A DNA stretch of 5,049 bases, taken from NCBI GenBank assembly GCA_947246775.1, contig CAMXTM010000182.1, positions 1 through 5,049 of the forward strand, read 5' to 3'. This document shows positions 79 to 4,744 of this stretch, piece by piece (positions within the stretch are counted from its first letter, which is position 1; every line of letters begins with the position of its first letter). Source of the DNA: an uncultured Clostridium sp. GTDB lineage: Bacteria; Bacillota; Clostridia; Lachnospirales; Anaerotignaceae. Under the pieces are notes generated by a model, which was not told the DNA's origin, did not search any database, and worked only from the letters and a program-made list of their open reading frames with translations. The translations under genes were made by a program, and so were the position numbers.

Positions 79-1050
79 TTAGATTTTAATAAGTAACCCA
101 CCCCATGTGAGTCCACCACCAAAACCTGCCATTAATATATAGTCTCCTTGTTGCAATAATTCCTTTTGTATCATTTCATTTAATGCAATAGGAATAGTTG
201 CAGCGGAGGTATTACTGTATTCAGCAATATTCATATAAAACTTTTCCAAAGGTATCTTTGTTTTTCTGGATATAATTTCTACAATGCGAGCATTTGCTTG
301 ATGTGGTATAACATATTTTAATTGCTCAGCACGAATACCTGATTTTTCTATCAATTTTAAAATACACTTTGGTGTTTGTCTGGTAGCAAAATCAAAAATA
401 GCTCTACCATCCATATGCAGAAAATTATCCTGTTCTTTTGATTCGCTATTGAATATATGAGAAGCTTTTTTTTCTGCACAACTCAATGACATACCACGAC
501 TACCATCACTACCTAGTTCTTCTGCCAATATGCCACCACTTTCTGCCTTTTCTAAAAAGACTCCTCCAGCTCCATCACCAAATAATACACAAGTGCTTCT
601 ATCTTTAAAATCTAAGTGTTTTGACAACACTTCTGCTCCAATAATTAGTGCATTATTATAAACGCCACTTTTAATAAATTTGTCTGCTGTACTAACGCTA
701 AAAATAAAACCAGAGCAAGCTGCACTTAAATCAAAAGCAACTGCATTTACAGCACCAATTTTAGATTGCACTAAACATGCTGTAGATGGTGTTGTATAAT
801 CTGGTGAAACAGTCGCAACAATAATCAATTCTATTTCCAGTGGATTGATATTGCCATTTTTTAAAATATCCATTGCTGCTTTTGCAGCAATATCTGATGT
901 GTTTTCTCCTTCTGAAAAATGTCGCTTTTCTATACCACTCCGTGAACGTATCCATTCATCACTTGTATCAACATATTGAGAAAGCATATCATTCGTAACG
1001 ATTTTTTCAGGAACATAAGAACCAGTACATTTTATTTTTGAAAAAATCAT
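79..1050 (-). CDS. fabH: Beta-ketoacyl-ACP synthase III (KAS III)
   Basis: This cytoplasmic enzyme condenses an acyl-CoA primer with malonyl-ACP to start each fatty acid chain. The 323-residue length fits the family (E. coli FabH is 317). The full Cys-His-Asn catalytic set is visible: Cys112 in DLSAACSGF, His250 in IPHQANARI, and Asn280 in YSNTSAATIP. The N-terminal TSDEWI and SGIEKR motifs and the C-terminal GFGGGLTWGG glycine-rich motif are also typical. The ATG at 1050 follows AAGGGAG (1064-1058) at 7 bases, and the protein starts where KAS III proteins usually start. The gene leads into acpP 29 bases downstream, so it is the first visible gene of a leftward fab operon. A FabT-like palindrome lies about 140 bases upstream. 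Primer preference (acetyl or branched) cannot be told from the sequence. Nothing appears broken. Confidence 0.97.
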   Translation of the reverse strand: MIFSKIKCTGSYVPEKIVTNDMLSQYVDTSDEWIRSRSGIEKRHFSEGENTSDIAAKAAMDILKNGNINPLEIELIIVATVSPDYTTPSTACLVQSKIGAVNAVAFDLSAACSGFIFSVSTADKFIKSGVYNNALIIGAEVLSKHLDFKDRSTCVLFGDGAGGVFLEKAESGGILAEELGSDGSRGMSLSCAEKKASHIFNSESKEQDNFLHMDGRAIFDFATRQTPKCILKLIEKSGIRAEQLKYVIPHQANARIVEIISRKTKIPLEKFYMNIAEYSNTSAATIPIALNEMIQKELLQQGDYILMAGFGGGLTWGGLLIKI

Positions 1051-1113
1051 GTTTTTTCTCCCTTACTTAAAAAAAATTTTTGCAAATATACATTCATTTT
1101 TGTCAAAGCCTAA

Positions 1114-1193
1114 TAAAGTATTTGCTCTATAGTCAATACACTACCAACTATACTTAGAATCTTTTACAATTTTATTGTGTATCAAATACTTTA
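1114..1193. repeat. 11-bp inverted repeat in the fabH upstream region
   Basis: TAAAGTATTTG at 1114-1124 is the exact reverse complement of CAAATACTTTA at 1183-1193, with 58 bases between the arms. The right arm overlaps the FabT-like palindrome and the left arm lies closer to fabH. The pair could be two related half-sites for one dimeric regulator, allowing looping, or chance similarity in AT-rich DNA. Only the arms are repeated; the coordinates span both arms. Confidence 0.4.
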
Positions 1194-1206
1194 ATAATCA
1201 AAGTAT
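1186..1206 (-). promoter_or_regulatory. FabT-like (MarR-family) operator upstream of fabH
   Basis: On the minus strand the core 1202-1190 reads TTTGATTATTAAA. This matches 12 of 13 bases of the FabT consensus core TTTGATTATCAAA known from streptococci and lactococci (recalled from memory). The palindrome extends outward to arms ATACTTT and AAAGTAT (1206-1186). FabT is a MarR-type repressor that, with acyl-ACP bound, represses fab genes, so a site upstream of fabH makes functional sense. It lies about 140 bases from the fabH start and about 100 bases upstream of the rightward promoter, so fabH is the likelier target. No fabT gene is in the window. AT-rich DNA raises the chance of accidental matches. 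Confidence 0.5.
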
Positions 1207-1302
1207 ATAATGCTTTTTTTAATACGTCAATCTTTATTCTGAAAATAATTCCATTAAATCCAAAATATTTTTAGTAAATGCTAACAATTTATGTTCTATA
1301 TA

Positions 1303-1331
1303 TTGACAATAGATTATATTTGTAATATATT
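1303..1331 (+). promoter_or_regulatory. Sigma-A type promoter for the NMO-family gene
   Basis: A perfect -35 box TTGACA (1303-1308) is followed after 17 bases by TATATT (1326-1331), a 5 of 6 match to the -10 consensus. Transcription would begin near 1338, giving a leader of about 75 bases before the ATG at 1413. It is the strongest promoter match in the spacer and points rightward, away from fabH. Confidence 0.75.
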
Positions 1332-1412
1332 TTTCTATGTATAATAATATTAAATCTACATCACATAGTTATAAAAACTATATGATATTTTATAAAAAGG
1401 AGTGTCCATACT

Positions 1413-2477
1413 ATGAAATTAAAACCACTTCATATTGGGGATTTAACAATACCTATTCCTATTATACAAGGTGGAATGGGTGTTGGTATTAGTCTATCTT
1501 CTTTGGCTGGAGCTGTAGCAAAAGAAGGTGCTGTTGGTGTTATTTCTGCTGCTCAACCTGGTTTTTTATCTAAAGACTTTTTAACAAATACAGTAGAAAC
1601 AAATTTAAATGCATTAGCCTATCACATTAAAAAAGCAAAAGAAATTTCTAACGGTGGTATTATTGGTGTTAATATTATGAGAGCTGCTACCCATTATGCA
1701 GATTATGTAAATTGTTGCATTAAAAATGGTGCTGACATGATTATATCAGGTGCAGGGCTTCCTATGGAATTACCTGATTTAATTGGTGATGCTCATATTA
1801 AATTTGCCCCTATTGTTTCTTCTGTAAAAGCAGCAAAAGTTTTATTACATCGCTGGGATAAACGTGGAAAACGTATGCCAGATTTTGTTGTAATTGAAGG
1901 GCCAAAAGCAGGTGGACATTTAGGCTTTTCAGAAAAAGAATTACTTTCTGGACTAGAAGATAATTATGCCTACTATGATGAAGAAGTTAAAAATATTATA
2001 GATTATGTTAAAAGTTTTGAGCAAAAATATAATCGCTCTTTTCCAGTTATTTTTGCAGGTGGCGTATATGATAGGAATGATATTGACCATTACCTGGCAT
2101 TAGGCTGTGATGGTGTTCAAATGGCTACTCGTTTTGTAGCAACACAAGAATGTGATGCTGATATAGAATTCAAAATGGCATATGTTAATGCTAAAAAAGA
2201 AGATATTACTATTGTAAAAAGTCCTGTTGGTATGCCAGGACGTGCAATCAGTAATCCTTTTATGGAATTAAGAAAAACAGAACGGGAAAATGTTACAAAA
2301 TGCTATAATTGTTTAGAAAAATGTAATCCTACTACAACTCCCTATTGTATTACAGAAGCCCTAATTCGTGCTGCAAAAGGAGATACAGAAGATTCTTTAT
2401 TATTTTGCGGTGCTAATGCTTACAAAATAGATAAAATTACAACAGTAAAAGAAATTATAGATGAATTAAATCAATAA
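1413..2477 (+). CDS. Nitronate monooxygenase / FabK-like FMN-dependent oxidoreductase
   Basis: This 354-residue protein belongs to the NMO (2-nitropropane dioxygenase) TIM-barrel flavoprotein family, which also includes the enoyl-ACP reductase FabK. Family signatures are IIQGGMGVGIS (residues 17-27), GVNIM (85-89), SGAGLP (112-117), PKAGGHLG with probable catalytic His169, and phosphate-binding FAGGVYD and LGCDGVQMATRFV (214-242). The C-terminus carries Cys297, Cys300, Cys304 and Cys312 (CYNCLEKCNPTTTPYC), which FabK lacks. The ATG follows AAGGAG at 10 bases. The gene stands alone, divergent from fabH and with its own promoter and terminator. The substrate is uncertain: nitronate detoxification is the family default, while the position beside fabH-acpP leaves a role in fatty acid metabolism open. 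The family call is strong; the specific reaction is not established. Confidence 0.85.
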   Translation: MKLKPLHIGDLTIPIPIIQGGMGVGISLSSLAGAVAKEGAVGVISAAQPGFLSKDFLTNTVETNLNALAYHIKKAKEISNGGIIGVNIMRAATHYADYVNCCIKNGADMIISGAGLPMELPDLIGDAHIKFAPIVSSVKAAKVLLHRWDKRGKRMPDFVVIEGPKAGGHLGFSEKELLSGLEDNYAYYDEEVKNIIDYVKSFEQKYNRSFPVIFAGGVYDRNDIDHYLALGCDGVQMATRFVATQECDADIEFKMAYVNAKKEDITIVKSPVGMPGRAISNPFMELRKTERENVTKCYNCLEKCNPTTTPYCITEALIRAAKGDTEDSLLFCGANAYKIDKITTVKEIIDELNQ

Positions 2478-2520
2478 AAATAGTAAATGCCCTCAATATT
2501 AAGGGCATTTACTATTTTTT
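2477..2520. terminator. Bidirectional intrinsic terminator between convergent genes
   Basis: A perfect 17-bp stem (2477-2493 with 2502-2518) encloses the 8-base loop CAATATTA. The GC-rich inner part is ATGCCCT / AGGGCAT. The outer part is an A run on the left and a T run on the right (to 2520), so each strand ends its hairpin in U residues. It begins within the stop codon of the NMO-family gene and reaches the stop codon of the second PII-like gene (2522-2520), serving both transcripts. Confidence 0.93.
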
Positions 2521-2852
2521 TATACATCAATGTGACCAGAAAACAATCCATAAACATCATCAACAGGCAACGAAAAGACAATTCCTTTTGCTGGAGAGTT
2601 CATTCCCATTTCATTAGAAATATTCATCATAATTTTTTGTTTAATTTCTTTTCTAGCAACAATCAATAAAAGTTCTTTATCTTCATTTATTGTAATACCA
2701 AAAAATTTGGCTGCTTCTTTACCACTCACACCATGACCATGCAATATTGTCCCACCTGTAGCACCTGCTTTCTTTGCTGCTTCCATAGCATCAGAAGAAT
2801 AACCATGATTTACAATAGCAATTACTAAAGCATATTTTTTATCCATACTCAT
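2520..2852 (-). CDS. PII-like signalling protein, second copy (110 aa)
   Basis: This small cytoplasmic protein has the length and fold pattern of PII regulators, trimeric sensors that bind nucleotides between subunits and control transporters or enzymes through a flexible T-loop. Visible parts are a first strand YALVIAIVNHG (7-17), a turn GATGGTILHGHG (30-41), a T-loop region VSGKEAAKFFGI (42-53), a strand ELLLIVA (60-66), and the B-loop-like SPAKGIVFSLPVDDVYG (86-102). The T-loop lacks the YRGAEY uridylylation motif of GlnB/GlnK, so it is not a canonical nitrogen PII. The ATG at 2852 has GGAGG (2865-2861) 8 bases upstream; the Met at codon 3 would be too far. Only 3 bases separate it from the preceding PII-like gene, implying translational coupling. 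It is the last gene of the operon and ends in the shared terminator. Confidence 0.85.
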   Translation of the reverse strand: MSMDKKYALVIAIVNHGYSSDAMEAAKKAGATGGTILHGHGVSGKEAAKFFGITINEDKELLLIVARKEIKQKIMMNISNEMGMNSPAKGIVFSLPVDDVYGLFSGHIDV

Positions 2853-2855
2853 AAT

Positions 2856-3209
2856 TTAATCCTCCTTCCAACCTGTTAAGGCACAGAATGATGCCATACC
2901 ACCAATACTATCCAATGGAATCGTAAAAGCAATTCCTTTTCCTGCTTTATGTAATTCCATTTCCTCTTTTAATTGAGCAAATATTTTTGGAACATCTTCT
3001 GCATACACAGTAGAAATAAATACATCTTTTACTGACTCATCTAGTCCTAAATAGTCTAACATCTCTGAGCTTGCTGTTCCCTTTCCAAAACATAATATTG
3101 TATAATTAATATTGTGACTTTTGTAATAAGATATTAATTTTTTACCTTTCCCTCTATCTACAATTGTAATCATAAGTTTTAATGGCTTTACTTCTCTTAT
3201 TTTTGCCAT
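2856..3209 (-). CDS. PII-like signalling protein, first copy (117 aa)
   Basis: This is a paralogue of the next gene downstream, with the same element order: strand LKLMITIVDRG (10-20), NYTILCFGKG (35-44), a T-loop region TASSEMLDYLGL (45-56), strand DVFISTV (62-68), and a B-loop-like HKAGKGIAFTIPLDSIGG (87-104). Both proteins share the pattern KGI.F..P.D...G near the C-terminus and T-I-L-..-G-.-G before the T-loop. There is no Tyr-51-type uridylylation motif. Residue 39-41 LCF differs from the LHG of its partner, so the two probably sense different signals or assemble together. The ATG at 3209 follows GGAGG (3224-3220) at 10 bases. It sits 17 bases after the DUF1538 membrane gene and 3 bases before the second PII-like gene. 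Control of that membrane protein is the likely role (inference). Confidence 0.85.
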   Translation of the reverse strand: MAKIREVKPLKLMITIVDRGKGKKLISYYKSHNINYTILCFGKGTASSEMLDYLGLDESVKDVFISTVYAEDVPKIFAQLKEEMELHKAGKGIAFTIPLDSIGGMASFCALTGWKED

Positions 3210-3226
3210 ATTCAGACAACCTCCTT

Positions 3227-4744
3227 TTAAAATTCGATAATATCGTTGTCTTCTTCTTTTTTAGATTCCATAACAGGTATTTCTGCACTTCTTTTCTTTT
3301 CTCCTATTGTATAAATTAAACCTAAAACTTGTATTGTCACTAGTGGAGTCATAGCAACCATAGCAACTATTCCAAAAGCATCTGTCATAATTTCTCCATC
3401 TAACGCTTGACAAGCTCCCATAGCTAAGGGCAACAAAAAAGTGGCTGTCATTGGACCAGACGCAACTCCTCCTGAGTCAAAAGCAATTGCTGTAAAAATT
3501 TTAGGTACAAAACGAGATAATGCAATTGCAATACCATAACCAGGTATTAAAAAGCACCATACTGGAATACTTGTTAATACTCGAATCATCGCAATTCCTA
3601 CTGAAATACCAACACCACATGACAAACTAATGAGCATTGCTCTCTTTGTAATATTTCCGCTTGTAATTTCTTCTACTTGTTTTGTCAATACATGAACTGC
3701 TGGTTCTGCAATAACAACAAACATTCCAATAACAATACCAAGAGGAACTAACACCCAATGATAGGATAGTTGTGCAATAGTATTTCCAATATGATTACCT
3801 ACAGGCATAAAACCTACATTAACACCTGTCAAAAAGCACACAAGTCCAATATAAGTATAGGCAATACCAACATATATTTTTTTGACATAATGTTTTGATA
3901 GTTTTAAATACAACTTTTGAAAAATTAAAAAGAATATAATAATAGGTGAAAGTGCTACTGCTACTTCTTTAAAATAATGTGGAAATCCACTTATAAATAA
4001 AACTACTACTTCTTTTATATTTTCTGCTGTAGCTTGTGTTTGTACTACATAATCTTCTGAAGATACACCAAAAAATAAACCAAGTATCAATACAGCTAAA
4101 ATTGGCCCTACAGAACATAATGAAATTAAACCAAAACTATCTTCTTGAGAATTTTTGTCTCCACGTACAGATGCAACACCAAGTCCTAAAGCCATAATAA
4201 AAGGCACTGTAATAGGTCCTGTTGTAACACCTCCTGAATCAAAAGCAACTGCTAAAAATCGAGTTGGAGAGAAATAAGCTAATAAAAATACGATAGCATA
4301 AAAAATAATAAGTAGTATTACCAAATTAACTTGAAACAAAATACGCAACAATGCTAATACAAGAAAACTACCTACTCCTATTGCTACCGATAATATCAAT
4401 GTCATATTAGGTATAGATGGTACTTGTGTTGCTAAAACTTGCAAATCTGGCTCAGCAATTGTAATTACTATGCCAAACAACAAAGCAGTTAATATTAAGA
4501 ATACTAAATTTCTGGATTTTGTCAATTGCGCTCCTACTTTTTCTCCCATAGGCATCATAGCAATATCTGCTCCTAATGTAAATAGCCCCATGCCAAATAT
4601 TAGCAAAATAGCTCCAACTAAAAATAAAATCATAGTATACAATGAAATAGGAACAATAGTAAAACTTAAAAGTAGTACAATGACAACAATTGGCATGACT
4701 GATGAAAGAGATTCTAATATCTTTATTTTTAAATTTTTATACAA
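3227..4744 (-). CDS. DUF1538 polytopic membrane protein, probable transporter
   Basis: This very hydrophobic protein of 505 residues (from the chosen start) has roughly 12 membrane segments and is an internal duplication. Numbering from the upstream TTG at 4768, IAEP at 104-107 and 353-356 and AFDSGGV..GP.T at 175-186 and 429-440 recur about 250 residues apart. The Asp-Ser-Gly-Gly-Thr-rich stretches inside hydrophobic surroundings resemble re-entrant substrate or ion sites. The family is uncharacterised (DUF1538); the substrate is unknown. The tail is acidic and cytoplasmic-looking (KKEEDNDIIEF). The start chosen is TTG at 4744-4742, because GGAGG (4756-4752) sits 7 bases before it, while the longer frame from the TTG at 4768 has no ribosome binding site and would translate the GGAGG itself. 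First gene of an operon with two PII-like genes, suggesting PII-controlled transport. Confidence 0.85.
   Translation of the reverse strand: MYKNLKIKILESLSSVMPIVVIVLLLSFTIVPISLYTMILFLVGAILLIFGMGLFTLGADIAMMPMGEKVGAQLTKSRNLVFLILTALLFGIVITIAEPDLQVLATQVPSIPNMTLILSVAIGVGSFLVLALLRILFQVNLVILLIIFYAIVFLLAYFSPTRFLAVAFDSGGVTTGPITVPFIMALGLGVASVRGDKNSQEDSFGLISLCSVGPILAVLILGLFFGVSSEDYVVQTQATAENIKEVVVLFISGFPHYFKEVAVALSPIIIFFLIFQKLYLKLSKHYVKKIYVGIAYTYIGLVCFLTGVNVGFMPVGNHIGNTIAQLSYHWVLVPLGIVIGMFVVIAEPAVHVLTKQVEEITSGNITKRAMLISLSCGVGISVGIAMIRVLTSIPVWCFLIPGYGIAIALSRFVPKIFTAIAFDSGGVASGPMTATFLLPLAMGACQALDGEIMTDAFGIVAMVAMTPLVTIQVLGLIYTIGEKKRSAEIPVMESKKEEDNDIIEF

Follow-up and report, generated by a model that had tools for sequence, protein, structure and literature searches.

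The stretch of DNA analysed here (the window, 5,049 nucleotides; positions 1 to 5,049 of contig CAMXTM010000182.1, assembly GCA_947246775.1) stems from an uncultured Clostridium sp. of the Anaerotignaceae and carries on its minus strand a three-gene operon that encodes a membrane protein with two DUF1538 domains and two small PII-like proteins. The features of the operon are as follows, with model confidence given as the predicted local distance difference test (pLDDT):

3227..4744, minus strand: membrane protein with two DUF1538 domains, 505 amino acids, start codon TTG at 4744; matches database entry P0080 (505 amino acids)
3227..3280, minus strand: C-terminal tail of the DUF1538 protein (last 17 residues and the stop codon; residues 489-505 with pLDDT below 50), ending in EEDNDIIEF
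2856..3209, minus strand: PII-2, PII-like protein, 117 amino acids; profile cross-match to the PII-1 family; AlphaFold model with a PII fold (pLDDT 81.1)
2520..2852, minus strand: PII-1, PII-like protein, 110 amino acids; PF00543 at 33.5 bits (cut-off 25)
2476..2519, minus strand: intrinsic terminator-like hairpin with 20 pairs, a 4-base loop and a T-rich tail

The genes are separated by 17 bases (DUF1538 to PII-2) and 3 bases (PII-2 to PII-1), and by eye a ribosome site precedes each of them, which confirms the layout described in an earlier note on this DNA, namely a membrane protein followed by two PII-fold proteins and closed by a strong terminator. Terminator-like sites number two in the window, compared with a mean of 1.9 in shuffled sequences; the operon hairpin has 20 pairs and the other site nine. 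The order of the three genes is identical in a close named genome, Clostridium sp. MD294 strain ASF356, whose DUF1538 protein shares 81% identity with that of the window. In the annotated records consulted, the genes go by the names “P-II family nitrogen regulator” and “DUF1538 domain-containing protein”. We favor, with moderate confidence, the reading that the operon encodes a DUF1538 protein that is likely a Na+(K+)/H+ antiporter, together with two PII-like proteins predicted to dock on it and to switch its ion flux.

The evidence for a functional unit comes foremost from the distribution of both families. Of 398 genomes of the phylum, 139 contain DUF1538, spread over 99 of 267 genera; the 14 control genomes contain none. 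These genomes provided 146 loci, i.e., the window and 145 loci from the other 138 genomes, of which 95 were among the matches listed (G153:C151 left out) and 50 represent all listed places in the 45 remaining genomes. A PII gene is located at 138 of the 146 loci, which is the linkage expected of a PII-gated transporter of the AmtB-GlnK or SbtA-SbtB kind; one locus counted as positive (L044) has its PII upstream on a short contig. Among the loci that lack PII, six (L048, L122, L156, L185, L187, and L189) reach the contig end downstream of DUF1538, and another (L191) has stops inside DUF1538 and belongs to a genome (G056) without any match to the PII profile. With its DUF1538 gene broken by several stops and its PII missing, G056 seems to have lost both partners together.

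The same association recurs outside this count. DUF1538 adjoins PII at six loci that were found via PII matches and therefore excluded (L201-L206; L206 is G153:C151), at six further loci on genome contigs (L005-L010), whose species may overlap with those of the 146 loci, and at ten loci from plasmid and phage collections (8 from the 9 matching plasmid records and 2 from the 6 matching records of the phage collection; two are from one species). In a set of 102 loci measured for gap and architecture (the window, L005-L010, and L040-L134), PII is co-directional with DUF1538 in 98, and the gap between them ranges from -307 to 138 bases (median -11), with negative values resulting partly from the mechanical choice of start codons. 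When all other reading frames of at least 110 amino acids within 2.5 kb of the pair were clustered, the most common cluster, an ABC ATPase by sequence, occurred at 13 of the 146 loci, so the recurrent module has two parts; this procedure could break up very divergent families, and the small clusters are partly unnamed.

The pairing persists through considerable changes in architecture. The DUF1538 halves occur fused or split, and PII occurs as a single gene, a gene pair, or one protein with two domains (L008 and others). Both DUF1538 copies lie in one frame of more than 400 amino acids at 46 of the 99 PII-bearing loci measured, and 45 of these 46 have at least two PII domains; the exception (L006) has a disrupted PII region. 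The remaining 53 loci were counted as split (23 with one PII domain and 30 with two), a number that includes three truly fused cases (L009, L097, and L118) interrupted by Ns, by the end of a contig, or by a frame break. At two loci (L155 in G389 and L165 in G328), a PII domain is in frame at the C-terminal end of the DUF1538 pair, and a tandem PII gene immediately precedes it; these single-chain DUF1538-DUF1538-PII proteins are a direct link of the two families. Two proteins suspected of being such fusions because of their length, P0091 (679 amino acids) and P0092 (692 amino acids), were recognized by eye as DUF1538 with an internal repeat.

The module is also present on plasmids of Alphaproteobacteria (Chelativorans and Methylocystis), where two DUF1538 genes are followed by PII. 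On plasmid pGW6_2 of Methylocystis rosea (L136), the cassette is flanked by IS66 transposase genes, and because the plasmid is typed as mobilizable, the module may move between strains. Two unverified fecal scaffolds labeled “Bacteriophage sp.” (MT835770.1 and MT835548.1; L140 and L141) carry DUF1538 with a tandem PII and may be bacterial contigs.

A phylogenetic profile of the PII subfamily points in the same direction. Profile A6, which comprises 32 rows of DUF1538-linked PIIs (26 from L040-L134 and one from the window), matched 137 of the 139 genomes with DUF1538 vs. 2 of the 259 others (G049 and G367) at E ≤ 1e-20; the positive side of this comparison is partly circular because some rows stem from the scanned genomes, the negative side is not, and the counts are uncorrected for shared ancestry. 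The two genomes missed are G056, with its broken gene, and G304, whose contig ends right after DUF1538. At a looser limit of 0.001, weak matches appeared also in 45 of the 259 genomes without DUF1538. Six of the best 150 PII sites listed are away from DUF1538, judged by contig and position.

Chance inheritance as a cause of the pairing is rejected on the basis of the fusions, the phylogenetic profile, and the neighbor clusters; the pairing of DUF1538 with PII is near-obligate and not due to chance, and a separate PII subfamily appears to be coupled to an antiporter family. That the PII-like proteins have other targets and are merely co-inherited with DUF1538 is very improbable: PII genes are indeed found away from DUF1538 in two sister genomes (L195 and L196), and G102 has an extra copy beside its PNTB gene, but genomes without DUF1538 hardly ever carry the subfamily, the pairing extends over two phyla and over split, fused, single, and tandem arrangements, and there are direct fusions. 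Rare or random co-occurrence would have spoken against the earlier proposal of a DUF1538 transporter under PII control, which the near-total co-occurrence now supports as a functional unit. Two of its parts are revised, the response to nucleotides and the substrate, which was given as unknown and for which the family offers an assayed member, the Na+(Li+,K+)/H+ antiporter UmpAB (PMC5484666).

The DUF1538 protein of the window contains two stretches of PF07556 (478.5 bits). Its AlphaFold model, built from a 34-row alignment (A3), is all helix (pLDDT 81.9; predicted template-modeling score 0.80), and by eye the helix order of the first half is repeated in the second. UmpAB, a pair of DUF1538 proteins from Halomonas zhaodongensis, is a two-component antiporter with an optimum at pH 9 that confers salt and alkali tolerance on Escherichia coli KNabc (PMC5484666). 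Both systems share the Pfam family and consist of a homologous pair of membrane proteins, which in the window forms one chain; we infer that the two halves represent a single antiporter equivalent to UmpA and UmpB joined. Judged from sequence, the DUF1538 protein of the window is likely a Na+(K+)/H+ antiporter. Two papers on cable bacteria regard UmpAB as a probable adaptation to marine life (PMC10030654, PMC12093952), and a model of growth pH lists DUF1538 in its table of 20 top Pfam families, alongside Mrp, Trk, and Kdp families (PMC13255231). In G153 (L206), a gene for the potassium-uptake protein TrkH (1453-2898, plus strand) directly follows the DUF1538-PII module.

An acidic-hydrophobic motif at the C-terminal tail, such as EEDNDIIEF, is present in 14 of 49 fused DUF1538 proteins, the window protein among them, after 12 of 26 pattern matches had been discarded by eye as lying inside a membrane helix; the tail is a possible candidate for a docking peptide. 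Other acidic motifs were considered as an invariant ion site and dismissed, since strict EP[DA] and D[SA][SG]G co-occur in only 134 of 196 domains.

PII proteins are textbook sensors of nitrogen, carbon, and energy. Both small proteins of the operon have the ferredoxin-like PII fold, PII-1 by its match to PF00543 and PII-2, which is under the cut-off of that family, by its model. Profile A1 of PII-1 retrieves solved PII proteins (best E 1.9e-8), PF00543 weakly matches 5 of the 15 members of the PII-2 alignment (best E 0.0021), and 47 of 50 among the rows listed in a Foldseek comparison of the PII-2 model with the PDB are named PII, PII-like, GlnK, or PstA. The profiles of PII-1 and PII-2 retrieve the identical 118 proteins in the fetched loci; PII-1 of the window corresponds to the C type of the tandem PIIs and PII-2 to the N type. 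A structure of the tandem PII of L008 via alignment A4 was abandoned when N-type proteins fell on the C half, and PII-2 was folded from alignment A5 instead.

The sequences of these proteins depart from classical PII (GlnB/GlnK) at K90, R101, and R103 (E. coli numbering), which we take to hold the ATP phosphates. Position 90 is hydrophobic (I, V, L, or A) in all 177 DUF1538-linked PII domains and position 101 is a glycine in 164 of the 177; an arginine at position 103 is found in 8 of 59 N domains and 10 of 59 C domains, and is outside the six most common residues in 59 one-domain proteins. In the canonical-type PII of the host genome and in two solved PIIs, position 90 is K or R and positions 101 and 103 are R. 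The replacement of these residues makes classical sensing of Mg-ATP and 2-oxoglutarate unlikely, which weakens the earlier idea of a response to nucleotides as far as the classical form is concerned; the signal of the DUF1538-linked PIIs is probably non-classical. Glycines at the positions of G35 and G89 are conserved. Cyclic di-AMP came into consideration as the signal through its part in controlling K+, but it was dropped, as the sequences give no hint of it and its involvement is doubtful in view of the copies in Alphaproteobacteria.

Linkage to amtB or other nitrogen genes, as expected of a classical PII, was not found: no Amt was matched in the host genome, which is 78% complete, and no neighbor cluster exceeded 13 of the 146 loci. 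A canonical-type PII (N-terminus not seen) is encoded on another contig. These results fit the earlier argument that the lack of nitrogen genes nearby disfavors ordinary ammonium control.

The DUF1538-linked PIIs keep a T-loop consensus (GRGTGIHE..KL.GI.IEPEKE); 50 of the 59 one-domain proteins have the glutamate of GIHE, as do 51 of the 59 C domains of tandem proteins. Three stray PIIs, L197 (G367), L198 (G346), and L199 (G317), lie upstream and on the same strand of a CitMHS-family transporter of 442-445 amino acids (PF03600 at 302-308 bits; ArsB over its cut-off in all three and NhaB in two, with MamN as best NCBIfam match, under the cut-off), and all of them have a T-loop shortened by three residues, from which the HE of GIHE is missing. 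Two unlinked tandem PIIs (L195 and L196) keep GAHE in the C domain. In the small number of cases available, the apex thus tracks whether the genome contains DUF1538, and it may touch the partner; the sequences suggest that the T-loop apex contacts DUF1538, with the three CitMHS cases being few and perhaps one event.

The neighbors of these stray copies differ. In G317, a cobalamin riboswitch (106 bits) is directly upstream of the PII-CitMHS pair (L199 3869-4062, minus strand), which may therefore serve cobalamin- or cobalt-related transport. The tandem PIIs of L195 (5030-6397, plus strand) and L196 (712-2079, minus strand) are divergent from a membrane-like protein of 455 amino acids, which has no Pfam match at E ≤ 0.001. 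A further copy in G102 (L200 420-3550, plus strand) is of the DUF1538 type and lies downstream of PNTB, the transhydrogenase beta subunit, another proton-moving membrane protein.

PII proteins are known as trimers, and the PII-like proteins would likewise assemble as trimers and dock on the cytoplasmic face of DUF1538. The conserved T-loop (GRGTGIHE...EPEKE) would keep the transporter closed, and a small ligand in the intersubunit cleft of PII would shift the loop and free the transporter. The setting of Na+, K+, and pH suggests a nucleotide that reflects the energy or osmotic state, which would be bound in a non-classical manner. PII control appears to be restricted to transporters able to work as trimers (PMC10710835); by analogy, a PII trimer may dock under a DUF1538 trimer, with the T-loops facing the cytoplasmic openings. 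Since the two PII types occur in equal number and cannot evenly share a three-fold ring, two rings, one per type, are likelier than mixed ones and would be the simplest arrangement.

A bolder version, which we put forward tentatively and consider possible rather than probable, is that a dedicated PII-like family, separate from nitrogen PII, serves as a universal on/off switch of the whole antiporter family: two kinds of PII ring, each with its own T-loops, would close both pseudo-symmetric halves of the DUF1538 Na+(K+)/H+ antiporter, constituting the first PII branch devoted to cell pH and cation balance, and the same branch would have been re-aimed at CitMHS/MamN-type transporters by trimming of the T-loop apex.

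Several observations weigh against a PII-switched Na+(K+)/H+ antiporter. The window protein scores well under the NCBIfam equivalog cut-offs of UmpA (169.6 vs. 490 bits) and UmpB (131.9 vs. 500 bits), so its activity and substrate are inferred across a distance, and a search for its fold among solved structures gave no clear relative, so neither a pore nor a trimer can be assigned to DUF1538. L094 (G218) has no adjoining PII, with a tandem PII of the same subfamily elsewhere in the genome, and its sister G313 carries a tandem PII on another contig. The glutamate of GIHE occurs in 13 of 59 N domains of tandem proteins, which carry a loop of their own, and the stray PII downstream of PNTB keeps the GIHE apex; its genome (G102) also has a DUF1538 locus. 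Finally, co-expression of umpA and umpB without a partner sufficed for activity in E. coli (PMC5484666).

Some of these observations bear on two other explanations. PII might control DUF1538 with another substrate here, such as an anion (organic or inorganic) or a nitrogen compound, the Na+/H+ exchange of UmpAB being specific to halophiles or a side activity. The low equivalog scores fit this explanation, as do the fact that UmpAB is the only assayed member that turned up in the literature and the proximity of three stray PIIs to CitMHS/ArsB/MamN-type transporters, a superfamily that also moves anions; the listing of DUF1538 together with the Mrp, Trk, and Kdp families in the top 20 of the growth-pH model (PMC13255231) and the lack of a recurrent substrate-specific gene cluster beside the loci render it unlikely. 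More doubtful still is a structural or assembly role, in which the PII-like proteins would be permanent subunits that sense nothing. Such a role would agree with the loss of the classical ATP-phosphate residues, the near-obligate pairing, and the DUF1538-PII fusions, but the conservation of the T-loop and of the glycines corresponding to G35 and G89 suggests that a ligand cleft is in use, and the activity of umpA and umpB alone indicates that PII is dispensable for transport, as expected of an inhibitor and not of an essential subunit. For an optional regulator, the role of an inhibitor fits more easily than that of an activator.

PII control of a transporter is an already known kind of regulation, and PstA, PotN, CPII, and SbtB are PII-like proteins among the closest known systems. 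As in GlnK-AmtB, a PII-fold gene adjoins a transporter gene and the T-loop is the presumed contact; by contrast, the transporter family, the substrate, and the PII subfamily differ, the classical ATP-phosphate residues are missing, and the host genome yielded no Amt. SbtB, likewise a PII-like protein outside nitrogen control, locks the Na+-coupled transporter SbtA (PMC10710835), which differs in being a bicarbonate transporter of another family, whereas DUF1538 often has two PII domains per transporter. Operons of the ybcC-nuoL type also have PII (COG0347) at the 3′ end, after a membrane protein that translocates ions (PMC5700660); the membrane protein is a different one, and the comparison concerns operon layout, not PII sequence.

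The operon of the window belongs to a near-obligate antiporter-PII module with non-classical PIIs, whose branch, substrate class, and double-PII layout look new. A search of open-access papers (preprints outside its scope) found none that links DUF1538 or UmpAB with PII, and the paper on UmpAB (PMC5484666) makes no mention of PII. If the reading is correct, DUF1538 gains a regulated role in pH and salt control, by a means that is both common and unstudied, given its presence in 139 of the 398 genomes, and it becomes a testable question which signal the non-classical PIIs read.

The window has no Rfam match at gathering thresholds. An Rfam scan of the window and 64 other loci (L197-L199 included; other loci left out, L145-L163 among them) revealed T-box leaders, tRNAs, one molybdenum riboswitch, and one cobalamin riboswitch at the 64 loci, none of which is a leader or riboswitch ahead of a DUF1538 operon by position and strand; tRNA genes do precede the operon in L050. 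With no match suitably placed at the loci scanned, a riboswitch or other RNA signal for DUF1538 operons was discarded. The operon of the window is flanked by two genes of fatty-acid type:

79-1050: FabH-like gene
1413-2477: nitronate monooxygenase/FabK-like gene

These neighbors (window 79-2477) are absent at L007, L008, L009, and L010 and recur in L005 and L006.

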